A stretch of 45,145 bases of DNA, from assembly GCA_018698135.1 (NCBI GenBank), contig JABINZ010000278.1, positions 1-45,145 of the forward strand, written 5' to 3'. The notes beneath the pieces were generated by a model. It was not told the DNA's origin and searched no databases. It saw only the letters and a program-made list of their open reading frames with translations. Positions 1 to 45,145 of this stretch are shown in pieces. The stretch's first letter is position 1. The number at the start of each line of letters is the position of its first letter. The translations under genes were made by a program, and so were the position numbers. Source of the stretch: Bacteroidota bacterium (GTDB lineage: Bacteria > Bacteroidota > Bacteroidia > CAILMK01 > JAAYUY01).

Positions 1-3000
1 ATCATCTGTGGAATAGCTATGAGTTGGACTGGCTAAAGAAGAAAAACTTCCATCTCCAAAATCCCAATAATATGTCTGCGAACCTGTGTTTATAGTTGAG
101 TTATTAGTAAATACAAACTGATTCCCATTGAAACATTGTTGGGAGTCGTTGATGCTAAAAGCAGGTAATGGCTTCGGAAATACATAAGTTGTTACTAAAG
201 CAGAATCGCTACAATTGAGGTTGGAGTTTGCCAAAAGCCAGACAGTAAACGTATCATCTGAAGCATAAGTATGTGATGGATTATTGGCTGTTGATGTATT
301 CCCATCGCCAAAGTTCCATGCATAACTGAGTGAACCATAGATAATAGAAGAACTATTGGTGAATATAAATTGATTGCCAAATACACATTGTTGGGAATCG
401 TTGACACTCAAGTTTGAGATTGGATTAGGGAATATATAAACTGACTTATTGTTTGAATCACTACTGCAGCCTACATTGGATGTACTCACCAGTTTTACAG
501 TGAAAGTATCATAGCTTGCATATGAATAGACTGGATTTACTGCTGAGGATGAATTTCCATCACCAAATGTCCAATGATAAGTTTGCGTGCCGCTGTTGAT
601 TGATGAGCTGTTTGAGAATACAAATTGGTTCGTATTAAAGCATTGTTGTGAATCATTGATGCCAAAATCAGCTATGGGCTCTGGATATACAATGATTTGC
701 CTTATTGAAGTGTCTGTACACCCAATTGAGGATTGAATAATCAAGTAAACATTAAATGTGTCATCACTACTATAAGCATGTGAAGTGTTTTGTGATATAG
801 AACTGTCCCCATCCCCAAAAAACCATTTGTAGGAGGAAATAGTTCCAATACTTATGCTGGAACTATCTGTAAAAGTATAGGAGTTATTGTTAAGACATTG
901 GGCACTGTCATTAATTACAAAGGCAGCTGTTGGAATAGGCTGAGTATAAACATTTTTAGCAATTGAGTCTCGACATCCTGCATCAGAAATCGCAATTAGT
1001 TTTACAGAAAATGTATCAATTGAATTATAAAAATGTACTGGATTTGTCGTTGTAGAGAAATTTCCATCACCAAAATCCCAAACATAATTTAAACTACCGA
1101 AACTTAATGACGATAAATTTGTAAAACTATAATTAGCATTTATACATTGCGATGAATCATTGATACTAAAATTTGCAATAGGCATGTGATTTACATACAC
1201 ATTTTTGATGATGGAGTCCTGGCAGCTGTTATCTGATGAAACAATCAGTTTAACTTGGTAGTTTCCAGTGTTTGAATAGCTATGGACAGGACTTGTTTGT
1301 GTAGAATTGGATCCATCTCCAAAATCCCAATAATAGGTCATATTGCCAATAGCAACCGATGAATTATTAGTGAAAGAGAATACATTTCCATTAAAGCATT
1401 GAGAACTATCATTTACAATAAAATCAGCTACTGGATTGATAAATACGTGGGCGTTCTTGGTATTTGAATCAATACATCCTTGGTTAGTACTAACAACCAT
1501 TTTAACCTGATAAGTTGCAGTATCTGAATAAACATGTGTTGATGAGCTATCAAGCGATGAGTTTGTGCCATCTCCAAAGTCCCAGAAATAATTCAAATTG
1601 CTAGCAGGAAGATTGGCATTGTTCCAAAAAATGAAGTTGTTCGTATTCAAACATTGTGTACTGTCGTTGATCTGAAAATTGACCGTTGGCTGTGGATACA
1701 CAAGTATATTTAAGGTATCTGTAAAAGGACATGAACCAAAAGTTCGATAAGTTGTAATTGTGAATGTTTTATTAATAGGGCTTGCTGTAGTGTTTTTAAA
1801 TAGAAATATCGGATTAGCGGAATTGGGATTTATAATATCGGCTGTTGGATTCCATTGGTAAGTATAGCTTGACAAGGAGTCGTAATGAAGAAATAATGAA
1901 TCGCCCGAACAAATAAATGTATCATTCACATCATAATTAATTTCAACTTTGTCCAGCAGATAAGTTTTCTGATTACAAATACAATTTGAAAACATGCCTG
2001 TATCTTGATGAATTACAGCTATTATTGGGCAAACATGAGCTGTGTCTAGAGTGAATATTCCATTAAGACTGATTGTTTGATTATTCCGGATTGAATCCGC
2101 ATAATACAGACGTCCAAATAAAGAATCACCTGCTGAAATCAAATTATCTCTATCCGAATCATGATAAAAGGAAACCCAGGTAGTATCTCCAGTAGGAATT
2201 TTTGCTCCCCCATTTTGAATTGTCAAGGTGAGATTTACTAGCTCTGAGTCTGGGTAAATAATATTAGCGTTTGCCTGAAAAGTGATAATATTTAAATCAG
2301 GCTTATAAACTGTTAAGGAATCTGTTCGAATTCCGGTACTTGATCTGAATTCACATGTGTCGTTTGAAGCCAGACATAACAAACTATCCAATACAACCGA
2401 TTGAAAACTCAATGGATATTTTGAGCATGTAAGTACATCATCCTGATGAATGCTGAACTCAAACTCCATAAGAGCATTGCTTTGCAATCCGGGTGGAATG
2501 GTCCAATCTAATTCAGTATATCCACTGATGGTTTGTATGGATGGTTCTTTTAAAGAATCGGCCTTATAAATCTTATTGGTGGATCCGGCATTATAGTTTA
2601 TGCCTAGTGGTAATTGAAGTAATAAATGATCCACATCGCCTGTACTGTCAGGACCTAAATTAGTGAATTGAACCTTAATTGTCTCTATACCGCTGCATAT
2701 CCTAACAGTATCAGTTACTACATTTATAGTTGCAATGTAAGGCTCTGAAGCACCATAAATGCGAGTTGGAGTGCTAGTAGCAACGGATGCACTGGCTTGA
2801 GAACCGCACGCATTTTTTGCCAATGTTCTGATCGTAAATTTACTTCCAGAAATGTAATTACAGTTGCTAATTAAGCTGAATTTAATAGACAAAGAATTTA
2901 GCGAAGTATCTTCAGTTCCTGAGAGTCCATAGTTGTTAATCGTGCTGTCAATACTTTCCATATCCCATTCGTAGATTCCATTTCCTTTGTATACAGGGTC

Positions 3001-6000
3001 TGAAATTAATCTGAATGACGATGCTGAAGGGTATTTGAATAGAGAACTGGATGGAATAATGTCTAAGCCTTGAAGAATTTGTAATTGAACTTTTGTCTGA
3101 TAAGCTTTTCCTCGTAGAGAATTAGATACTTCCAGCGAATAATGAATCGTATCACATAAATAGGCCGTATCAGCAGGAGTAAAAACCTGTAATTCGAGAT
3201 TTGCCAATAAAGGTTCTAAAAACAAAAAGGTAGAATCGCTTGAACACAAAGGTGTATTGTATAGATAATTGGTATCGCATGTCCAGCCTGATGTAAGTTT
3301 TAAAGTGTCGTTAATGCAAGTATTGTGGTAAGCAAAAAGCTTGAAAGTTTTGTTTGAGGAGGTGTTAAGCGATCCCAAATTAAAATAGCCATTGGTCTCA
3401 TAAATTACCGCACTGGTTAGTGTGTTCAGGATATATAAAGGGTAAATATTTCCAGAGGCAGAGTTTACTTTTACCCAGCTATTTTCAGCTGAAGAAGTTG
3501 CTGACAAATTACTGATAGAAAATTGCCAATTGGCAGATGTGTCAATCGATTGATGGGTTGAAAGACCTTGTATTTTAAGGTTGGGTGCCGAGCTATTTAC
3601 GGTGTTATTGCTGAAGTTACTCGTCCAGATGGGAGGCATAAAGCCTGAAGTTGGGACAAATTCATACTGCCAGCTGATTTCTTTTGCTGCTGGAGTTTCA
3701 AATCCGCATTTATTGGGTATCAAAGTAAGGTAGATATAACCATGAAACCCATCATCACTTTTGTGAAGTTGACCGCTATTAAAATACTGCTCAATATCAA
3801 ACATCAAGGTATCTCCATTCTGATAGTCGGGAGTTAAGTCGTAAACATATTGAACGGAAGTTGAGCGAGTTCCTGTCGTTCGATAATAACTTAAATAAGC
3901 ACTGACTAAACTATAACCAGATGGGATAACTGCAATTGATTTGGATAATTTAGCCCAAGGTCGATATTCAAATGGGAACATATTTCCACCTGCATAATTA
4001 TTACAGCAAGGGCCAACACTTAGGTAAAATCCTTTTGATGCAGTGAATTGTTCGCAAGCTTTGGGATAATAAACAGATGTTCCATAAATCGTATAATAAT
4101 AGCCAACAATGTTGAATTGACCAATAAGTAAGTCTAATCCGCAAAAATGCTTTGCGCTATCTTGAGTTGGGTTTTGTACATAACTGAGATAGTAATCTGA
4201 ATTGACTGTAATAAAGCGAGAATTCCCCCCAATATTACTGATGATTTTATAATCCAATACAAGAAAAATAGAATCACCACTTGCATATTTATATGTGCTT
4301 GGAATACTACAACCATTTGAGTTTAAGGATGCAATTCCAAAATCATATTTGAAGGTGCTACCGCTTTTGGTATAGGAAATATTGCTGCATTGATAATAGC
4401 TTGATGCGCTGGCATCATAAATTGTAAGTTGAGTGCCTACATTGCTAAGCCTGTTTTCCGAGAATGTGTTGATTGCATAGCCATTCATCCAATTGTTCGT
4501 GCCAAAAACATTACCCTCCATGGTAATTCGTAAAGTATCACCATACATGGCTCTTTCAGTAGCAATTTTTGACATATCCAATACGCCACTGCCATCAGGA
4601 AACCCATTATTGTCGTTATCTGGTAATCCATAGCTATTTCGAACGATGCTGTATTTTGTTCGATTTAAGGCACTAGTTGTGCATTTAGTATTACAAACAA
4701 GTGGTATTTTATTAACCTGAGATCCCAATTTTTGTTCACAACTGCAAACCGTGGTTGGAACATAGCTAACTGATAAGGTAACGTCCTTATATCCTCCTAG
4801 ATTGGAGCATCCAAAACAGTCACCAACCACATTAAAACGCAATTTCGAATCCGTAAAGCTAAATCCCGATGGTCTGTTTGACGGGCTAAAATACAATACA
4901 ATATCGTTTCCTGAAATCACTTTTTGATAGGGAAACCATTGCAGATTATCATTATAATTTGTGTATGTAAAACTACTCGTATCAATCACCAGACAATTAG
5001 GACTATTTACAGTATATTTAAAGATTTGGCTACTTTGTCCCGGCCATACATAAATATCCAGAATCTCAAAACCAATTTTAGTACTAACTCCTTGTGATAT
5101 GCTATTCCCAGGCGCTAATGGCTCATTAAATCGAACCCGTTGTAATTGACGTGACATCCCAAGTGATTGAGGTTTGGTAAAAACCTGATTCCAATGACAA
5201 GGTGTTTTATACTCGGCACTATAAGACCAGCCAAAACCATTAAGATGACTTCCATCTGCACAACATGAATATACATCCCATTGCAACAGAGCCGTATCTC
5301 CTGCTTTAATTTCGGGGATTCTAACCACCACCTTTCCCTTGGGAATAGATGTGTTGAAGCAGGATCGACTGGATGTTCCCGTTGTAGAAATTGGTGTTAA
5401 TGTGGTGCTATTTCCTTTTAAAAGTAAATTGAAGGAATTTGGGTCTATATGTGTGTAGAAATTATTGTAATAGGCATAATTCTGGTTAATCGTCTGTAAA
5501 ACTGTCAAATCTATATTGATAGCATTGGCCGATCCTGTATTGATGATTCTAATTTGTTGGGGACTTGCATTACTGGCTCCATAACATCTGTTAATGTAGG
5601 GATATGCTGTAAAAACCAAGTTTGGTACGTTGGAGAGATTAATAGAAATAGAGGCAGAATTGGTGTTTGTTTGACAAACTTGATTATTACAACCCCAGGA
5701 AACCGCATAACTTTCGTCCAAAGAATCGATTCCTCCTGCAACAACAATTTCTGTTAAAACCAAACTCTCGTTATATTCAAAAATAGAATCATTATCACCA
5801 ATTCCCAGAAAGTCGGATTTACTGAGTGTAACAGTGGTTGTATTTCCTGTGGTTACAACTGAGCCTTTATTGATATTATAAACGATAACATTATCTTCTG
5901 AAGTTATAACAAAGGTGAAACTCTCCAAATATCCAGTCCCGCCATTTGTTATCGTTATTGCCCGACTTAGGGTGTCGAAACATTTATTTAATGTAGCTGA

Positions 6001-20568: not shown

Positions 20569-21690
20569 ATGCAAATTAAGGAGGTAGTTAGCAAAAAAGA
20601 CCGTCAGGACTTTCTTGATGTAGCACGCATTGTATATGATGATGATAATCATTGGGTGTGTCCATTGGACAATAACATTGATGAAATTTTTGATCCTGAA
20701 AAAAACATTTTTGCCAAAGAAGGCGATTATAATCGGTGGATACTTTTGGATGATAATCTTAATTTAATAGGAAGAGTAGCTGCATTTGTAAATAGGTCAA
20801 AAGCCCATGCTTATGAAATTCCAACTGGTGGCATTGGCTTTTTTGAATGCATAAATGATGAGAATGCAGCTTTCCTGCTGTTTGACCAATGCAAAAAATG
20901 GTTGATAGAAAAAAAAATGGAAGCCGCTCTTGGTCCTATCAATTTTGGAGAAAACGATAAATTTTGGGGTTTGTTGGTTGAAGGATTTGAAAATCCTGCT
21001 TTCGGAATGCAATATCATAAAACCTATTACAAGGCCTTTTTTGAGGCCTATGGATTTGAAGTTTTTTTCGAACAATTGACAAACCAATTATTGCTGAACA
21101 AACGCTATCCTGAACGTTTTTATAAAATTGCCGAATGGATACTAAAAAAGCCTGGTTATACCTTTAAGCCATTTTCCTATAAATACAAAAACCAATTTTT
21201 AAATGATTTTGTAGAGATCTATAACGATGCTTGGTTGGATCATGACAATTTTTCTCCTATGAAATACGAGGAAATCGAAAATCAAATTAAGGAAGCAAAG
21301 CCATTTTTGGTTGAAGATTTTGTTTGGTTTGCCTATTTTGAAAAAGAACCTATTGGGCTGGTTGTTATGATGCCTGATATTAATCCCATTATTAAAAGAT
21401 TTAATGGGAAATTGAATCTAATTAATAAGCTGCGTTTTCTTTATTTAGCCAAAAGGCGATTGTTTACACGCGCCAGAATGGTTGTTATGGGCGTGAAGAG
21501 AAAATACCAAAATAAGGGAATTGAATCTGGCTTTTTCTGGCACATGGAAAAAGTAATGGAAAAATATCCTGAATACAAAGAAGTTGAGTTATCCTGGGTG
21601 GGTGACTTTAATCCTAAAATGCTGGCTCTTCATAAAGCTTTGGGAGGAACACCTTCCAAAAAGCATATTACGTATAAACTTAAGTTTTAA
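20569..21690 (+). CDS. GNAT-fold protein (YghO-like N-acetyltransferase)
   Basis: 373 residues, no signal peptide. It resembles the large GNAT-related family typified by YghO. FLDVARIVYDDDNHWVCPLD and PTGGIGFFECINDENAAFLLFDQCKKWL form the N-terminal half, GPINFGENDKFWGLLVEGFENPAF the centre. The C-terminal half has FVWFAYFEKEPIGLVVMMPD and VMGVKRKYQNKGIESGFFW, the latter an acetyl-CoA-loop-like segment. The acceptor is unknown. It probably shares the sucD transcript. A repeat-filled region begins directly after it. Confidence 0.75.
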   Translation: MQIKEVVSKKDRQDFLDVARIVYDDDNHWVCPLDNNIDEIFDPEKNIFAKEGDYNRWILLDDNLNLIGRVAAFVNRSKAHAYEIPTGGIGFFECINDENAAFLLFDQCKKWLIEKKMEAALGPINFGENDKFWGLLVEGFENPAFGMQYHKTYYKAFFEAYGFEVFFEQLTNQLLLNKRYPERFYKIAEWILKKPGYTFKPFSYKYKNQFLNDFVEIYNDAWLDHDNFSPMKYEEIENQIKEAKPFLVEDFVWFAYFEKEPIGLVVMMPDINPIIKRFNGKLNLINKLRFLYLAKRRLFTRARMVVMGVKRKYQNKGIESGFFWHMEKVMEKYPEYKEVELSWVGDFNPKMLALHKALGGTPSKKHITYKLKF

Positions 21691-21719
21691 ATGACGTCAT
21701 AGAATATCTGTTTATTTAT

Positions 21720-21749
21720 CAACTGTTTCTCTCAATGAGGGCACTGTTG
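21720..21749. repeat. Degenerate REP-like palindrome
   Basis: CAACTG...CACTGTTG, imperfect, with the inner CTC...GAG pair. It resembles the RAYT-flanking REP palindromes at 38334 and 38976 but is more decayed. It opens the 477-nt gene-free stretch 21691-22167, the rest of which is mainly the composite repeat at 21757-22080. Confidence 0.45.
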
Positions 21750-21756
21750 CAAAATC

Positions 21757-22080
21757 TCTCAGATCTCAGAGTCACACAGCGAATTATATCATTTTCACTT
21801 ATTCTTATTAAGTGGAGACTCTGAGTGGACAAAAATCTCATCACATTTCATATTAATTTGTGCAACTTAGAATAAATAATTGTAGACTCTGAGCGGACAG
21901 TAATTGTAGGTCCGATTTGCAATCGGACACACATAATGTTGATAAACCGAATACAATTCGGTTCTACATTAGTGGTAGAGGATATTGATGCTTCTGCTTT
22001 AATAGTTTTTAATTCTCAGAGTCACACATCGAATTATGTCAGTATCTGCAAGTTTTTTTATGTGGATGCTCTGAGCGGAC
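21757..22080. repeat. Composite palindromic repeat, copy 1 (~324 bp)
   Basis: A near copy lies at 22749-23060 in the same orientation. Structure: a 66-nt element (21765-21830) bounded by CTCAGAGTC and GACTCTGAG; a linker; a double hairpin of GTCCGATTTGCAATCGGAC (21910-21928) and AACCGAATACAATTCGGTT (21945-21963), enclosed by outer TGTAG/CTACA arms; then a second 66-nt element (22015-22080) of the same kind. No convincing gene lies in it; a 71-codon ORF at 21936-22151 merely reads through the hairpins. Confidence 0.9.
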
Positions 22081-22167
22081 CAAATTATTGTTCCAGATTA
22101 GGTACTCCAATGTTGTGTTTACTAATTATCACTTGTTATTCGATCTCTTAGCTATTATATTTGAGAT

Positions 22168-22614
22168 ATGAATTTTTTTTTCATCATTCTTACTTTGCAA
22201 ATCTCGTTTTTATCTTTTGGACAAATTGATAAAACAAATACTAGATTTGAAATAAGCTTTATTGATACAAGCTTAGGATCATTTTATTCTAGTTCTGCAA
22301 CTCCTCCAGAGTTTTATGGAGGTGTTGATAGTTTATTTGCGTTTGCACAACGAACTATCTATTATCCGGAGTTGGGAATACGTGATAGTATTACTGGAAG
22401 ACTAGTACTATACTTTGAGATTGACTCTTCAGGTCATGTCATGAATGATTCGATTAAGGAAAGTTTGAGAGAAGATTTTGATCAAATCTGTTTGGACATG
22501 ATGAAACAAATGCCCAGATGGAAGCCTGCTACCATTAGTGGAAAACCAGAAGCTGTTTGTGTATTATGGCCTATCAGATTTACTTTATCCACTAAAAATG
22601 AAGAGTTGGATTGA
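22168..22614 (+). CDS. Small secreted protein with TonB C-terminal-like domain
   Basis: 148 residues. A signal peptide (MNFFFIILTLQISFLSFG|Q) is followed by a short linker and a domain resembling the TonB/TolA C-terminal fold: EFYGGVDSLFAFAQRTIYYPELGIRDSITGRLVLYFEIDSSGHV and a C-terminal MPRWKPATISGKPEAVCVLWPIRFTL. Free-standing TonB-C domains with a cleavable signal and no membrane anchor or Pro-rich spacer are common in Bacteroidota and have no fixed function; energy transduction to a receptor is unlikely without an anchor. It sits between two near-identical palindromic repeat blocks, so it may have been duplicated or moved with them. Confidence 0.75.
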   Translation: MNFFFIILTLQISFLSFGQIDKTNTRFEISFIDTSLGSFYSSSATPPEFYGGVDSLFAFAQRTIYYPELGIRDSITGRLVLYFEIDSSGHVMNDSIKESLREDFDQICLDMMKQMPRWKPATISGKPEAVCVLWPIRFTLSTKNEELD

Positions 22615-22648
22615 TTGTTTTATCTCATAGTCAAACTATACTGTCTCG

Positions 22649-22674
22649 TCAGTGTCTCTTAACAAGGACACTGA
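22649..22674. repeat. REP-like palindrome
   Basis: TCAGTGTC and GACACTGA arms around an inner CTT-AAC-AAG stem, followed by TGCA. Same layout as the REP copies next to the transposase at 38407-38970. A further degenerate relative lies around 22731-22751 (TGTC..TTCGAA..TGACA). Both are in the 509-nt gene-free stretch 22615-23123. Confidence 0.6.
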
Positions 22675-22748
22675 TGCAATAGCTCTCAAGTCAAATCACT
22701 CTGATATCTGTTTTGTCCCAACATGTCTTTCGAAGATGACACTTTAGT

Positions 22749-23060
22749 TCTCAAATCTCAGAGTCACATATCGAATTATATCAATTTTACTTATTCTTAA
22801 TTAGTGGAGACTCTGAGTAGACGAAAATCTCATCACATTTCATATTAATTTGTGCAACCTAGAATCAATAATTGTAGACTCTGAGCGGACAGTAATTGTA
22901 GGTCCGATTTGCAATCGGACACACATAATGCTGATAAACCGAATACAATTCGGTTCTACATTAGTGTAGAGGATACTGATGCTAGTTTTTAATTCTCAGA
23001 GTCACACATCGAATTATATCATTTTCACTTATTCTTATTAAGTGGAGACTCTGAGCGGAC
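22749..23060. repeat. Composite palindromic repeat, copy 2 (~312 bp)
   Basis: Direct repeat of 21757-22080 with a few substitutions and a short deletion. It contains 66-nt elements at 22757-22822 and 22995-23060 and the paired hairpins at 22902-22920 and 22937-22955, which are identical to copy 1. Together the copies bracket the TonB-domain gene. Confidence 0.9.
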
Positions 23061-23067
23061 GAAAGTA

Positions 23068-23103
23068 CAAACAAAAAGCCCCTTGAATTAAATCAAGAGG
23101 CTT
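23068..23103 (-). terminator. Rho-independent terminator of the desulfurase/DsrC operon
   Basis: On the minus strand an 11-bp stem (AAGCCTCTTGA...TCAAGGGGCTT, one mismatch, loop of 6 nt, 23103-23076) runs into TTTTGTTTG. It lies 20 nt after the stop of the cysteine desulfurase gene and so would end the operon. Confidence 0.85.
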
Positions 23104-23123
23104 CCAAAATAGATAATTGTGTT

Positions 23124-24287
23124 TTAGGCCCTTATAGAAGCAATATCTGCTATAGCTTCAATAGCTAAATCAATATGTGCTTCCGTATTAAATGGTCCAA
23201 TACTTAAGCGTACAGTTCCATGCATGTTGATGGTGCCAATACCCTCATGTACTTTTGGTGCACATTGCAAACCTGTACGGCAGGCAATATCGTAGTCTAC
23301 ATCCAGCATGGTTCCAACATCGCCAGCTTCAAATCCACCAACATTTAAACTTAAAACTGGATTCTGGTTTTCAATGCTATCGGCACAATAGGTTGTTACA
23401 TTATCAATTGCCTGTACTCCTTTTCGTAGTTTATCCCAAAGAAGCATTTCTTGTTTATGGATATTTTCAATTCCTTGTTCTTGAATCCATTTAACACCTG
23501 CATTTAGCCCGGCAACTCCAACTAAATTAAGTGTTCCGCATTCTAAAACATATGGATATTCAGTAAGGTGTGTTTTAACTGCAGAGCGTACTCCTGTACC
23601 ACCAAAGCGGGTGCCTTTTACAGGAACACCTGGCATTACATAAGATCCACCAATGCCCGTTGGACCCATCAGGCATTTATGTCCTGTAAAAATATACACA
23701 TCAATACCCATAGCTTGCATATCGATTTCAACAGCACCAGCACTTTGGCTTCCGTCAACAACAAAAATTACACCTGCTTCTTTGCAGATTTTGCCAATTT
23801 CAGCAACTGGTTGAATGGTTCCGATTATATTTGAGCAATGGTTAACCACTACCATTTTGGTATTTTTCTTAATCGCTTTTTTGATGTCATCAGGATTCAC
23901 ATATCCATACTTATCAAACGGAATATAATCCACTTCTGCAGTTCCGTCCATCTCCAAATGATAAAGAGGTCGCAAAACAGAATTATGTTCCAAACAAGTA
24001 CTGATAATATGATCTCCTTTTTCGGCCAAACCTTGCAAAATCATGTTCAGTGTATCTGATGCATTGTAACTAAAAGTTAGTCTGTTTGGATCTCCATCTC
24101 CATGAAAAAGCTCAGTAAGCATTTTGCGTGTTCCGAAAACCACTTCTTCAGTTTCGATAGCAGCATCAAATCCTGACCGACCCGGACTTACTCCATGATT
24201 GCGATAAAAACTGTCCATAAACTGATAAACAGCTTCGGGTTTAGGAAAAGAAGTTGCTGAATTGTCTAAATAGATTAAATTACTCAT
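23124..24287 (-). CDS. Cysteine desulfurase family protein (class V aminotransferase)
   Basis: 387 residues. YLDNSATSFPKPE at the N-terminus, Asp178 in FVVDGSQSAG, the Schiff-base Lys204 in TGHKCLMGPTG, and Cys342 in CRTGLQCAPK as the likely persulfide Cys. RLSIGPFNTEAHID at the C-terminus is typical of the short NifS-like subgroup related to Enterococcus EF2568, not SufS or IscS. It should release sulfur from cysteine as an enzyme persulfide. Its ATG overlaps the stop of the upstream DsrK-like gene (ATGA), so the two are translationally coupled. I infer that it loads the operon's DsrC with sulfur, but selenium or another acceptor is possible. Confidence 0.88.
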   Translation of the reverse strand: MSNLIYLDNSATSFPKPEAVYQFMDSFYRNHGVSPGRSGFDAAIETEEVVFGTRKMLTELFHGDGDPNRLTFSYNASDTLNMILQGLAEKGDHIISTCLEHNSVLRPLYHLEMDGTAEVDYIPFDKYGYVNPDDIKKAIKKNTKMVVVNHCSNIIGTIQPVAEIGKICKEAGVIFVVDGSQSAGAVEIDMQAMGIDVYIFTGHKCLMGPTGIGGSYVMPGVPVKGTRFGGTGVRSAVKTHLTEYPYVLECGTLNLVGVAGLNAGVKWIQEQGIENIHKQEMLLWDKLRKGVQAIDNVTTYCADSIENQNPVLSLNVGGFEAGDVGTMLDVDYDIACRTGLQCAPKVHEGIGTINMHGTVRLSIGPFNTEAHIDLAIEAIADIASIRA

Positions 24288-38333: not shown

Positions 38334-38363
38334 CATCAGAGTCTCTCGGAGAGGACTCTGATG
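38334..38363. repeat. REP palindrome, left of the RAYT gene
   Basis: Perfect 10-bp arms CATCAGAGTC / GACTCTGATG with an inner CTC/GAG pair. The reverse complement matches the palindrome at 38976-39005 at about 27 of 30 positions and shares the neighbouring ATG on one side. The two therefore form an inverted pair around the transposase gene. Confidence 0.85.
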
Positions 38364-38406: not shown

Positions 38407-38970
38407 ATGACTATTAAAACTTCTCAGGACTCGGATGATTCTTTGTTCTTCTGCACTTTCACTTGTTTCAATTGGATACCTCTGTTTGAGATAACGAATT
38501 TCTACAGTGAGATTTATAAGTGGTTTGATATACTGGTAGAAAGAGAATGTAAAATCATTGCATATGTTATCATGCCAAATCACTGTCATTTTATAGTATT
38601 TGTGCCTTCTAAAGAGAATATTAGCAAATTAGTCGCAAATGGAAAGCGTTTTATGGCTTATGAGATAGTTAAACGATTACAGAATATTGGGAAATTGAAA
38701 TTGCTAAAAGATCTGGAAGAATCTGTTGATCCGAATGAAAAGAAAATAGGTAAACGGCATAATGTGTTTCAACCTTCATTTGATGCAAAACCTATATTTT
38801 CAGAAAAGTTTCTATTTCAGAAATTAGATTATATACATCATAATCCTGTTTCAGGGAAATGGAATTTAGTTGAGGTCTGTACGGAATATGAACATTCTTC
38901 AGCAAAGTATTATGAATTTGGTGAGTTTGGAATATATCCTGTAACGCATTATGAAGATGTATTTGGCTAA
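38407..38970 (+). CDS. REP-associated tyrosine transposase (RAYT, Y1_Tnp family)
   Basis: 187 residues from ATG 38407; a TTG at 38401 is also in frame. IAYVIMPNHCHFIVFVP carries the HUH metal motif (HxH). YIHHNPVSGKWNLVE and YEHSSAKYY near the C-terminus are typical of the Y1/RAYT family. These are single-stranded DNA nicking/joining enzymes that usually occur once per locus and act on REP palindromes. Inverted REP copies lie 43 nt upstream of the ATG and 5 nt after the stop, and more relatives are scattered in this window. I did not assign the catalytic Tyr with certainty. Confidence 0.9.
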   Translation: MTIKTSQDSDDSLFFCTFTCFNWIPLFEITNFYSEIYKWFDILVERECKIIAYVIMPNHCHFIVFVPSKENISKLVANGKRFMAYEIVKRLQNIGKLKLLKDLEESVDPNEKKIGKRHNVFQPSFDAKPIFSEKFLFQKLDYIHHNPVSGKWNLVEVCTEYEHSSAKYYEFGEFGIYPVTHYEDVFG

Positions 38971-38975
38971 TAATG

Positions 38976-39005
38976 CATCAGAGTCCTCTGCGAGAGACTC
39001 TGCTA
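38976..39005. repeat. REP palindrome, right of the RAYT gene
   Basis: CATCAGAGTC, CTCT-GCG-AGAG, then GACTCTG: nested stems beginning 5 nt after the transposase stop. Opposite in orientation to the 38334 copy. Confidence 0.85.
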
Positions 39006-40095: not shown

Positions 40096-40148
40096 AAACA
40101 AAAAGGTCCAAGAACCGCTTCCGCTTAATCTTGAACCAGTTTTTGTTT
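40096..40148. terminator. Bidirectional terminator-like inverted repeat
   Basis: AAACAAAAAGGTCCAAGA (40096-40113) faces TCTTGAACCAGTTTTTGTTT (40129-40148), an imperfect stem whose outer arms are A-rich on one side and T-rich on the other. It lies between the convergent LpxR-like gene and the T9SS pseudogene. A close relative is at 45002-45043. Confidence 0.65.
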
Positions 40149-40165
40149 ATTATCCTGAACTCAGG

Positions 40166-41119
40166 TTAATACTTTATCACCTTAACCCTCTCAATTGTAT
40201 TGATATAGATCAAATTGACAAAATAGATACCTTGTGGACCATTGATTTTAAGAACAATTTCATCATTATTGTTGAATGTTTTATCAATGACAATTTCACC
40301 AAGCTCATTTAATACCTGGACAGTTAATTCTTTATAATTATTTAAAGACTTTATGTTTACTATTCCAGAGGTTGGGTTTGGGTGTAACACGAAATTACTT
40401 AGCTCAATTTCTTTCAGTCCGATTCCTGTTATGTCATAGCAAAATGAGGTGTCGATGCATCCTTTTTGTATAATTTCTACTGCATAATTTCCGTTTGTAG
40501 TTGCCGTAAAGGATTTGTTTGTATCCCCTTGAAGGATGCTGAAACCATTATCACAATCTAACCACTGGTATTTTGCTCCCGATGTATTTGCAGTCAAAAT
40601 AGGGGTATTCCTAGTGACTTTTACATCAACTGTATTTATAGTCAAATTGATGGTTATTACACTATCACAGCCAGCATAGTTTGAGATTATATCCTCATAA
40701 ATACCGCTTACAGTATAGATTTCATCACCACTAGGGGCTTTATACTTAAAGCATCGGGCTACTTTTATATTTGAACTTGTATGATAGCAGCTGTAAAATA
40801 CCCTTGCATGCCCAGCATTAATTCCACTTGCATCATTTCGTTGTGCACCAATCGCTACTTTTGATCCATCAGAACTCAAAGATACTGACCATCCGCATTG
40901 ATCTTCTATTGCCTCACCTTTTAAATCGCCTCCTTGTTTAACCCAATTACCTGAGATAAACTTAAATACATTTGCGTAGCCTGTCATTCCAGTTCCATAT
41001 TGACCAATTGCACCAGTTGCCACAGTTAAACCATCTGAACTTATCGATACAGAACTGCCAAAAAAGTCATTCGCAGCTTTTCCAAAAATATCTCCGCCCT
41101 GAGCTGTTCGTAGCTTCAA
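40166..41119 (-). pseudogene. 5'-truncated T9SS-exported protein gene
   Basis: 317 codons from a TTG at 41119, with no ATG and no signal peptide; the frame runs upstream through a palindrome to a TAA at 41143-41141. The body has two copies of a repeat (GGDIFGKAANDFFGSSVSISSDG and GGDLKGEAIEDQCGWSVSLSSDG) typical of long secreted Bacteroidota proteins with many such units, then an APSGDEIYTVSGIYED segment, an Ig-like part, and an intact T9SS tail (VLHPNPTSGIVNIKSLNN ... VKVIKY). The 5' part, including the signal, is absent. The break falls exactly in the palindrome at 41105-41129, so I call it a remnant. Expression as a cytoplasmic protein cannot be excluded. Confidence 0.65.
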
Positions 41120-41129
41120 GCTACAAACA
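41105..41129. repeat. 12-1-12 palindrome, family C copy 1
   Basis: Arms TGTTCGTAGCTT and AAGCTACAAACA around a single C, with one mismatch. Same family as 41336-41360 and 41823-41847, which are perfect. It contains the TTG from which the truncated gene is read. Confidence 0.9.
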
Positions 41130-41335: not shown

Positions 41336-41360
41336 TGTTCGTAGCTTCAAGCTACGAACA
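41336..41360. repeat. 12-1-12 palindrome, family C copy 2
   Basis: Perfect arms TGTTCGTAGCTT / AAGCTACGAACA around one C. It ends 7 nt before the stop of the small lipoprotein gene. Confidence 0.9.
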
Positions 41361-41816: not shown

Positions 41817-44771
41817 CTAGGCTGTTCGTAGCTTCAAGCTACGAACAACGGAGATTTTAATTTTTGTCTCAGCAGTGTCTCCTGCAAGGGACGCTGCTGA
41901 AATATAATAAGTGCCTTGAACCAAACTTTCTTTAATAACAGTTGAAATAAGCTGCCCATTCATATTATATATACTCAAATGGACAGGACTCGTTGTATTT
42001 ATCTTGAAATGAACCCTTGAATTCATATCAACTGGGTTGGGATAAATTCTCAGGTCATTGTTAATTACCGCTGTTCGTGTTTTTGATACCAATTCTGAAA
42101 AGTCAACGGCATAATTTCCAATTCTTAGTTCATCAAACCACCCATCGAATTGAATATTGCTTCCTCCATCAACTCCTCCAATAAAAACATCATGATTCGA
42201 ATGATTGATTAATCCTGAACTACCAGCAGGAAAAGCTCTGAAATCTTCAAACATTAATTTGCGATGATCGTTGTGGACATAAAACTTGATTTTTCCTGAA
42301 CTGGAATCGCTTACCATGGCAACATGATACCATTTATTTAGTTGCAGTTGCTTGTTTTGAAAAAAACTGATCTCTTCATTATTGGAAAATTTGACCTGAG
42401 CACCAAAGCCATTTCCTTTTCCATCAAGCCAAATACCGAAAGATTGTCCTTTGTCGATGAGAATAGGATACTCCAGTTTTTTAGTACCCAGACTATTTAT
42501 TTTCACCCAGCTTTCAACGGTCCAATTACTTCCCAAATTAAGTTCGGTTGTATGTGGAATCCGTATACAATGAAAATCTGAATTTACTGAGTTATCAATT
42601 CTAAAAGCCTTCCCTAAGTGTAAATCATAGTTTTCGGCATAGCTACCGTAGTTTTGATTTTCATACGGCAAACAAGTTGTTTCAGCTGCATTTGAAATGT
42701 TTTCTTCAAAATGTAGATCTAAAATATTCTTGTTGTTTTTCTTGTACACACCCCCAACCAATGATGCTGGCATAAAACGAAAAGTATCGGAATAAAATAC
42801 AGCACTATGATCACTGATGTCAGTGGCTTTAAGATAAACTTCATCTGCCTGAATTTCGGGACAGTCAAACACAAATAAACCCTTGTTAGCCAAAACGGAA
42901 TCGGCAATAGTTTCCCATCCACTTGAATGACAATAATACTCCAATTTGAAAGCTTGTATGCCCTCAGATTGCCAATAAATGGGTTGTTCTGTTGCCGATT
43001 CAAAATAGGTGTTTGATTTTGGATAATTAAAGCTGATTGTTTTTTGATTATAGACCTGAAATACTTTAGATCGCCTGTAAACATTTGGATTAAGCATATC
43101 ACTTAGCCGTACTTTATAGTTTTCTGATGCATGGTCAGGAATTGTCCAACTGTAACTCCCACTTGAAGCATGGATGTTTTCGGCAATTTTGTTCCAGGTT
43201 CTTCCCGAATCGGATGAAAACTCCAACAGTAGGTTGGTAATTGAACTACTCGTCCATTGTATAATTAGTTCATCTTTTTTCTCCAGATATTCGCCTCCCT
43301 GAGGGTAAGTGAGTGTGAGTTCTTTCCCTTCCCACTCAGGAAATATGTATATGATTACGTCCTGATTCATGCCATAAGGAAATGAGTCAATATCAATCCA
43401 GAATTCATCATCTCCCATGGAAATATCTGTGTGGAACAAATCATTTTTATCATAACCATCACAAACATAAAAGTGTCCTGCACCTCCATTCCAATAGCGT
43501 TCCTCGAGTCCGCCTATCATAATGGGTCGACCATGGCTTATTTCATTTTTGAATATGTCAATCCATTCGTGTTTGCTATATTCATCCCTGAAAATCATTC
43601 GTGCCGAATCGGAATAATGAAAATAATCTTTTAAAGCCTTAGGCATTCCAGACATACCATCGTGATAATATTTTGATGATGTGCCCACTTCAACTGATAA
43701 GTGAGAGGAAGGACCATATTCCTCTATTGAGGGATTTGCTGAAAATGTATTGGGCATTAAATCATATAAGTAATCTGAGCTATCGTAGTTCACATTCCAG
43801 TGTACAGAATCCGTCCAGAAGTCAAGCTGACCACTGGGGAATCGTGGATGTTCCCAAAAATGAACCAATCGGGTCATCATGGTCATACCACAGCTATTGC
43901 CTTTGTGTATGATGCCAGTCGATTGATCAATGGGGAAAAATTTCCTTAGCGGATCCATATATACTTTCCATTTATCTCTGAGGAGAGGTTGTACTTCATC
44001 TTTTAGCTCAGCATAATTAATGGCAGAAACTACATCATCTCTATATTTCCTATAGGTTTTACTGATTCGCAGTTCATCTATCCAGCCATCGAAATAAGTA
44101 TTACTATTGTTTCCAAAGCCAATATATAGTTTCTCATTACTGTTGAAAAGTGCTGTTGGAACATAACCTCTACTGGCAAATATTTCCCGATAATTCTCGT
44201 CTCTGATTAGTAAGTATAAATGTTTTTGTTGAATTTCAAAGTAAATAGCCATGTGATACCATTTACCTGCTTCCAGTGTGTTTTGAACGCTTCCTGCATC
44301 AGTACCTCTGGGATGAGCATCATCAACACAATTTGCATTTGCCTGCATGGAGTTTGAAGCTGACGAAAAAGTGATTTCATAATCGGCTGGCCAATTATCA
44401 CCCTTCCTTAGAATGATAGGGTATTCGGTGTGATTTTGCCCCCAGGAGTTTATTTTAAACCAACATTCAATGGCAAAGCCCGTACTGAAATTCAAGTCAT
44501 TATAAAATGGAACCTCTATCCAAGACTGTTTTGAAGAGGTTGAATTATCAATACGAATACATTTTCCATGATTGCTCAAAGATGTTTCGTAGGAGATACC
44601 ACTTCCATGAATTATTCCATTATTCCCCACACTTGCAGAATTGTTTGCATTATTCTCAAAATGCATGAGTAATACGGTATTGTTATCGGGAGTGTAAGGA
44701 CCGCCATTTTCCTGGGCTGAAAGATTTAAAAAAACGATGATGAAAAGAAGCAGAAAGTAGGATTTGGCCAT
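41817..44771 (-). CDS. Secreted LamG / C10-peptidase-like / LamG protein with abnormal T9SS tail
   Basis: 984 residues; the signal peptide ends LNLSA|Q. Residues ~30-240 and ~700-900 are LamG-like jelly rolls (WYHMAIYFEI...FDGWIDELRIS; WYHVAMV...FDGWFDELRIG). Residues ~258-480 resemble streptopain-type C10 peptidases: VQPLLRDKWKVY, KGNSCGMTMM with Cys294, and GAGHFYVCDGYDKN with His433, the expected Cys-His pair. Residues ~480-680 are Ig-like (two ITNLLLEFSSDSGRTW-type units). A T9SS domain begins at LRIYPNPVDMNSRVHF, but after LVQGTYYI the last ~28 codons (SAASLAGDTAETK...SLKLRTA) are REP and palindrome DNA, so the sorting signal is probably altered. Probable surface or secreted protease; the C10 assignment rests on motifs only. 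Confidence 0.8.
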   Translation of the reverse strand: MAKSYFLLLFIIVFLNLSAQENGGPYTPDNNTVLLMHFENNANNSASVGNNGIIHGSGISYETSLSNHGKCIRIDNSTSSKQSWIEVPFYNDLNFSTGFAIECWFKINSWGQNHTEYPIILRKGDNWPADYEITFSSASNSMQANANCVDDAHPRGTDAGSVQNTLEAGKWYHMAIYFEIQQKHLYLLIRDENYREIFASRGYVPTALFNSNEKLYIGFGNNSNTYFDGWIDELRISKTYRKYRDDVVSAINYAELKDEVQPLLRDKWKVYMDPLRKFFPIDQSTGIIHKGNSCGMTMMTRLVHFWEHPRFPSGQLDFWTDSVHWNVNYDSSDYLYDLMPNTFSANPSIEEYGPSSHLSVEVGTSSKYYHDGMSGMPKALKDYFHYSDSARMIFRDEYSKHEWIDIFKNEISHGRPIMIGGLEERYWNGGAGHFYVCDGYDKNDLFHTDISMGDDEFWIDIDSFPYGMNQDVIIYIFPEWEGKELTLTYPQGGEYLEKKDELIIQWTSSSITNLLLEFSSDSGRTWNKIAENIHASSGSYSWTIPDHASENYKVRLSDMLNPNVYRRSKVFQVYNQKTISFNYPKSNTYFESATEQPIYWQSEGIQAFKLEYYCHSSGWETIADSVLANKGLFVFDCPEIQADEVYLKATDISDHSAVFYSDTFRFMPASLVGGVYKKNNKNILDLHFEENISNAAETTCLPYENQNYGSYAENYDLHLGKAFRIDNSVNSDFHCIRIPHTTELNLGSNWTVESWVKINSLGTKKLEYPILIDKGQSFGIWLDGKGNGFGAQVKFSNNEEISFFQNKQLQLNKWYHVAMVSDSSSGKIKFYVHNDHRKLMFEDFRAFPAGSSGLINHSNHDVFIGGVDGGSNIQFDGWFDELRIGNYAVDFSELVSKTRTAVINNDLRIYPNPVDMNSRVHFKINTTSPVHLSIYNMNGQLISTVIKESLVQGTYYISAASLAGDTAETKIKISVVRSLKLRTA
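41823..41847. repeat. 12-1-12 palindrome, family C copy 3, inside coding sequence
   Basis: Perfect arms TGTTCGTAGCTT / AAGCTACGAACA. It encodes the C-terminal RSLKLRTA of the LamG/C10 protein, and the stop follows immediately. Confidence 0.9.
41870..41899. repeat. REP-like palindrome inside coding sequence
   Basis: CAGCAGTGTC / GACGCTGCTG arms (one G-T pair) with inner CCT-GCA-AGG. It encodes SAASLAGDTA in the tail of the LamG/C10 protein. Confidence 0.8.
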
Positions 44772-45001: not shown

Positions 45002-45091
45002 AAACAAAAAGGTCCAAGAAGAATCTTGAACCAGTTTTTGTTTTTTACATGCTAGGACTTGTGTGGAAAAATCTTGAACCAGTTTTTGTTT
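45002..45091. repeat. Family D inverted repeat plus an extra half-copy
   Basis: A full unit at 45002-45043 (AAACAAAAAGGTCCAAGA facing TCTTGAACCAGTTTTTGTTT) and a second right arm at 45072-45091. Same family as 40096-40148. The T-rich flanks make it terminator-like. The gene it would serve is beyond the right edge. Confidence 0.75.
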
Positions 45092-45145
45092 TTTTCAAGC
45101 TTTGACTTGTTAGGGAACATTTCATGAAAGAATATACTTTATTAA

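Follow-up and report, generated by a model that had tools for sequence, protein, structure and literature searches.

GTAG REP doublets within duplicated composite repeats of a Bacteroidota genome

The window, meaning the whole 45,145-nt stretch of Bacteroidota DNA analysed here, contains two composite palindromic repeats. Very probably, these are head-to-head doublets of GTAG REPs, organised as a BIME or REPIN and likely to be RAYT substrates, that were fused to a second palindrome and duplicated, with the TonB gene between them as a bystander. The GTAG REP doublet family is real and well supported. It is of a kind already known, with a stem family that is new locally. The result adds a Bacteroidota REP/REPIN family with a probable RAYT.

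Anatomy of the composite repeats

An earlier note on this DNA described a nested palindromic composite, present as direct repeats of ~315 nt that were 992 nt apart. The arrangement was borne out. The whole blocks are 88% identical (genome search) and include an ungapped 218-nt pair (21757-21974 and 22749-22966) that is 94% identical. The figure of 992 nt is also correct, but it is the spacing from the start of one block to the start of the other. The features are listed in Table 1. The 66-nt element occurs in four copies across both blocks. The double hairpin occupies 21910-21928 and 21945-21963 in copy 1, and 22902-22920 and 22937-22955 in copy 2. Copy 1 is flanked by genes of the same direction (20569-21690 and the gene at 22168, both on the + strand) and copy 2 by convergent genes (22614, + strand; 23124, − strand).

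Table 1. Features of the composite repeats and of the RAYT-like gene region, with positions in the window.
Feature	Position	Strand	Remarks
Composite block, copy 1	21757..22072	+	66-nt element, half element, REP doublet, 66-nt element
66-nt 'b' element	21767..21830	+	CTCAGAGTC...GACTCTGAG; matched by exact-arm scan
Half 'b' element, copy 1	21882..21898	+	right arm only (GTAG-ACTCTGAGCGGAC), directly 5' of doublet
REP 1, copy 1	21906..21928	+	GTAG foot and GTCCGATT-TGC-AATCGGAC hairpin
REP 2, copy 1, inverted	21945..21967	−	AACCGAAT-ACA-ATTCGGTT hairpin, then CTAC (GTAG foot, − strand)
66-nt 'b' element, diverged right arm	22017..22080	+	right arm GATGCTCTGAG; not matched by exact-arm scan
TonB_C-domain gene between blocks	22168..22614	+	148 aa; Pfam TonB_C, E 1.1e-10
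'a'-type palindrome near copy 2	22650..22673	+	CAGTGTCTCTTAACAAGGACACTG; type as flanks window RAYT
Composite block, copy 2	22749..23052	+	last 66-nt element runs on to 23062
66-nt 'b' element	22759..22824	+	matched by exact-arm scan
Half 'b' element, copy 2	22874..22890	+	as in copy 1
REP 1, copy 2	22898..22920	+	
REP 2, copy 2, inverted	22937..22959	−	
66-nt 'b' element	22997..23062	+	matched by exact-arm scan
'a'-type palindrome	38337..38360	+	5' of window RAYT gene
RAYT-like Y1 (HUH) transposase gene	38407..38970	+	type differing from P0001 (see text)
'a'-type palindrome, inverted	38979..39002	−	3' of window RAYT gene

The copies differ at 12 of the 218 ungapped positions, of which the 62-nt doublet contains one and the remaining 156 nt contain 11. 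As had been observed, the double hairpin is unchanged between copies. The accompanying hint of selection is not supported by this pair alone, which does not show an excess of conservation in the hairpins over the flanks (Fisher p = 0.19). The DNA fold of 21880-21972 has a z-score of −5.2, and none of 200 shuffles folded equally well. The RNA fold gave z = −2.9. A three-way junction, held by outer TGTAG/CTACA arms, had been offered as a possible fold. As the organising idea, this is unsupported. The outer stem appears in the RNA fold only, is absent from the DNA fold, and pairs through the TGTAG at 21881, not the one at the hairpin foot. The supposed arms are the feet (GTAG) of two REPs that are inverted relative to each other.

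A family of GTAG REPs in the genome

With the feet included, the first hairpin reads GTAG-GTCCGATT-TGC-AATCGGAC, and the second, taken from the opposite strand, reads GTAG-AACCGAAT-TGT-ATTCGGTT. Each REP consists of GTAG, an 8-bp stem and a 3-nt loop. Two inverted REPs form the head-to-head doublet. The earlier note had proposed a search elsewhere in the genome and in relatives. We ran it, and the double hairpin and its REPs recur in both. A block unique to its locus and devoid of structural conservation elsewhere is ruled out by the genome-wide copies and by covariation. Using GTAGGTCCGATTNNNAATCGGAC, with up to 3 mismatches, the whole genome (G000) gave 17 forward and 15 reverse matches, several of which re-read the same place from the opposite strand; the reversed-pattern control gave 0. 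A perfect stem with foot was found at 12 places (whole-genome pattern search, up to 3 mismatches; reversed-pattern control, 0). For the second REP, 4 matches were forward and 16 were reverse, against 0 in the control.

We scanned 15 G000 stretches, 14 chosen for having search matches plus the window, for family stems with no foot required. This identified 43 stems with varied loops. GTAG was on exactly one side of 35 and on both sides of none. For 27 GTAG-footed rows, 99.1% of cells were paired, 30 cells had changed on both sides, and three of the eight pairs contained both-side changes. None of 500 shuffles equalled the observed pairing percentage or covariation score. Taken alone, the count of pairs changed on both sides was no better than in shuffles (468/500). 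Sliding the partner by one column reduced pairing to 52.3% or 35.2%. The 27 rows come from the 35 footed stems; seven of the eight omitted are perfectly paired, and the other (C268:1735) has only 5 pairs. The eight stems without GTAG are also outside this set. A recount of all 43 rows, from a scan that compares both arms with palindromic templates and hence leans towards paired arms, gave 334 of 344 cells paired, which none of 2000 shuffles equalled. The structural constraint on the hairpins suggested earlier is thus borne out by covariation across the family.

The REPs have a preferred orientation and placement. Among 16 dimers with members within 100 nt, 13 were head-to-head (GTAG outside), three were tail-to-tail (GTAG inside) and none was tandem. 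None of 38 placed REPs was within an open reading frame of at least 110 aa; 17 were between convergent reading frames, eight between unidirectional ones and one between divergent ones, with 12 not classifiable. Doublets were also found without the 66-nt element at C54, C161, C174 and C176, in differing flanks. These bear on an alternative in which an inert, decayed repeat was duplicated in tandem or by gene conversion and the doublet itself is immobile. The composite flanks common to the copies, and the lack of a cognate RAYT in the assembly (see below), fit such a history. Conversely, doublets free of the 66-nt element argue against it, and it accounts for the pair, not the family. We consider it unlikely.

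The blocks could instead be structured RNAs, such as hairpins in 3' UTRs, terminators or a three-way junction with a regulatory role, that are retained for a local function on the TonB gene. The RNA fold score, a position downstream of mainly convergent genes, and the G-U pairs present in the family stems are all in keeping with this. However, Rfam returned 0 matches, with E up to 1, for 21000-23800. The sole terminator-like site in 21500-23300 (23074-23105) is outside the blocks, and the doublet adjoins other genes at many loci. Furthermore, a one-sided GTAG foot and RAYT linkage are unexpected for a UTR element. Such a function is very improbable as the explanation for the blocks. The doublets may have a secondary RNA role, with a possible effect on transcripts.

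BIMEs and REPINs number hundreds of copies per genome. The family described here has tens of copies, not hundreds, that are dispersed and extragenic within one genome. It further differs from BIMEs and REPINs in that the cognate RAYT is absent from the assembly and the doublet is fused to a second palindrome. The use of two inverted REPs as a unit, dispersed in one genome, matches BIMEs and REPINs as presented in the available text of Bertels & Rainey (2011; PMC3116915).

A close parallel is the GTAG REP super-family. In the available text of Di Nocera et al. (2013; PMC3733652), its members have a GTAG foot at one end, a stem of 6-9 bp and a loop of 2-3 nt. Complementary stem variants occur, head-to-head dimers are favoured, head-to-tail dimers are rare and heterodimers are common. 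The elements are intergenic, mainly between convergent or unidirectional genes, and are linked to RAYTs. Foot, stem, loop, complementary stem variants, dimer make-up and orientation, placement and RAYT linkage of the window's family are alike. The same text describes dimers of GTAG elements lying inside other palindromes, as well as GTAG units next to stem-loops of unrelated sequence, and these are mosaic precedents for the window's composites. The stems may equal one of the 24 consensus families in Figure 1 of that paper. Among the matches listed, the exact stem strings GTCCGATT, GACCGAAT and AACCGAAT were not found, by title, in bacterial-repeat literature. Likewise, GTAGGTCCGA, GTCCGATTTGCAATCGGAC and GTAGGACCGAAT led to no bacterial-repeat paper by title among the matches listed, none of which contained the 19-mer. 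The phage records and viral contigs searched contained no match.

RAYT genes in relatives and in the window's genome

Exact matches to the pattern were present in 3 of 100 genomes, namely the window's own and only two other relatives. In G001, of the same genus, the pattern occurs six times, with five occurrences around one gene. This gene encodes a 190-aa RAYT (P0001) and has REPs of the window's family on both sides. P0001 narrowly passes the NCBIfam model REP_Tyr_transpos (NF047646; 80.6 bits, cut-off 80) and contains the motifs NHVH, FWQ and YILNNP. The closest named record, the metagenome-assembled Bacteroidetes bacterium BS150m-G14, is 100% identical to the G001 protein. A PDB sequence search with P0001 found none. 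G006 represents a different family within the order, and a RAYT in it is 53% identical to P0001 (NF047646, 88.7 bits). At its sides are GTAG hairpins, GTAGATCGGAAT-TGC-ATTCCGAT and GTAGCTCGGAAT-TGC-ATTCCGAG, with the same 8/3/8 geometry and other stem letters. The G001 and G006 pair, with REP geometry alike, different stems and RAYTs 53% identical, is a compact test case for co-change of RAYT and stem.

We scanned the 26 long matches from named genomes (L132-L157) among 80 returned loci. Records from Hymenobacter, Ignavibacteriales/Melioribacter and betaproteobacteria are included. GTAG hairpins were within 600 nt of the RAYT at 13 of the 26 loci, and the other 13 had no GTAG hairpin by the scan criteria. 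The near regions, totalling 43.7 kb, contained 37 such hairpins, compared with four in the remaining 82.6 kb.

A RAYT of the cognate type was not found in the window's own assembly, where the best match has 26% identity. The assembly is a draft of 287 contigs, 96.95% complete. The window's REPs may be relics, or the cognate gene may be in an assembly gap; either way, this genome gives the look of such REPs where the assembly is without a cognate RAYT. The genome has 13 Y1_Tnp matches. A strict-foot hairpin scan found the GTAG doublet at none of the 13 loci, its sole match being of another sequence. The loci inspected closely with a looser scan had other palindromes, or none by the criteria used. 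A remnant of a RAYT start in C268 was rejected as the cognate gene; it adjoins palindromes like those of the C163 RAYT (TTTGTAGTC). The remnant (L056:1359-1433) spans 25 aa with 68% identity to the C163 RAYT and lies between REP arrays.

In the available text of PMC6006769, TnpA-REP/RAYT proteins of subclass 2.4 (group 4) have the motifs NH[IFV]H, WQ and YIxNNP, are accompanied by canonical long and double-foot REPs, and have Bacteroidetes hosts. P0001 fits this subclass, to which it is assigned by motifs only. At L138, from a Melioribacter roseus metagenome-assembled genome, a single hairpin within the RAYT gene (match at 2501-3142) carries two opposite GTAG feet. This resembles the 'double foot' REP insertions described for subclass 2.4 in that text.

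The doublets are most likely non-autonomous substrates of an HUH/Y1 RAYT of the subclass 2.4 / group 4 type. Such an enzyme would recognise the GTAG foot and hairpin on single-stranded DNA, and would then copy or move the doublet. Single-stranded GTAGGTCCGATTTGCAATCGGAC is a candidate substrate of the G001 RAYT. That a G001-type RAYT would act on the doublets is suggested by analogy with the E. coli enzyme, which recognises single-stranded REPs with a GTAG foot and cuts near the foot (PMC8266576). The experimental RAYT work described in the available text of that source deals with group 2 and group 3 enzymes from gammaproteobacteria.

The second palindrome group and the fused composite

Their arms place the 66-nt elements in a second group of palindromes (CAGWGTC...GACWCTG). 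The arms of the 'b' element are CTCAGWGTC and GACWCTGAG, with ~60 nt between arm ends. Exact-arm matches were found at 10 places (20 rows, with both strands printed). At the variable position, five have A-T and five have T-A, all paired; shuffled sequence gave 0. A pattern search for the short 'a' form (CAGWGTCTCTNNNAGAGGACWCTG, with 2 mismatches allowed) matched 24 places in G000, 16 in G001 and 0 in G002, G003 and G006; the control gave 0. The 'a' form also shows paired changes, with 2 of 13 unpaired at the variable position.

From the shared arms, the group is probably that of the RAYT-like gene at 38407-38970. The product scores 67.0 bits against REP_Tyr_transpos (NF047646), below the cut-off of 80, and 32.3 bits against Y1_Tnp, above the cut-off of 23. 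The available text of PMC6006769 describes RAYT subclass 2.6 (group 5) with 'atypical secondary structures' in Bacteroidetes, and that of PMC3733652 describes TIR-flanked RAYTs. The window RAYT and its 'a' and 'b' palindromes resemble these in having side palindromes without a GTAG foot and copies in the genome. The protein has NHCH and YIHHNP, outside the motif printed for subclass 2.6 in PMC6006769.

There are two composites in C278, the window's contig, and three in C268. The junction between half 'b' element and doublet is the same in the window's blocks and in C268, where a whole 'b' element precedes it at three places. The sequence shared by the two contigs extends beyond the doublet. 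Because C278 and C268 have both the junction and this further sequence in common, we conclude that the fused unit was duplicated. The doublet would have inserted next to a 66-nt palindrome from a second group of REP-like elements, for which RAYTs of the 38407-38970 type are probably the cognate enzymes. The fused composite would then have been duplicated to give two copies in the window and three in C268. An apparent fusion of palindromes of two RAYT types in one amplified composite is the less usual aspect of this locus. Rather doubtfully, the composite might be a chimeric non-autonomous element that joins the GTAG doublet of a subclass-2.4 enzyme to the CAGWGTC/GACWCTG palindromes of the 38407-38970 enzyme, such that one RAYT could spread the REPs of the other even after gene loss.

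The earlier note placed emphasis on the bracketing of a TonB gene. This is probably incidental because the same doublets adjoin other genes at other loci. A compound mobile unit, made of the two composites and the gene, would be consistent with direct repeats that enclose exactly one gene. The sucD and acyltransferase-like neighbours have conserved counterparts in G002, at 84% and 55% identity, and are followed there by a different gene, which we take to be folE-like, with no TonB gene. Conversely, G000 has no second close copy of the TonB_C gene (next best, 37% identity), and the three C268 composites are without this gene. Gene orders in G003, where the aminotransferase neighbours differ, and in G002 diverge by more than the insert, and no clean empty site was seen. 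There was no sign of the TonB_C gene moving with the repeats. We regard a compound unit as extremely unlikely, and the gene is probably a bystander.

Two further repeats were observed in the window. Another palindrome (TGTTCGTAGCTTCAAGCTACGAACA) is present three times, at 41105-41129, 41336-41360 and 41823-41847, and resembles those near the C225 RAYT (L017). Short direct repeats (AATCTTGAACCAGTTTTTGTTT) occur as a tandem pair and a distant copy (45018-45113 and 40127-40152).
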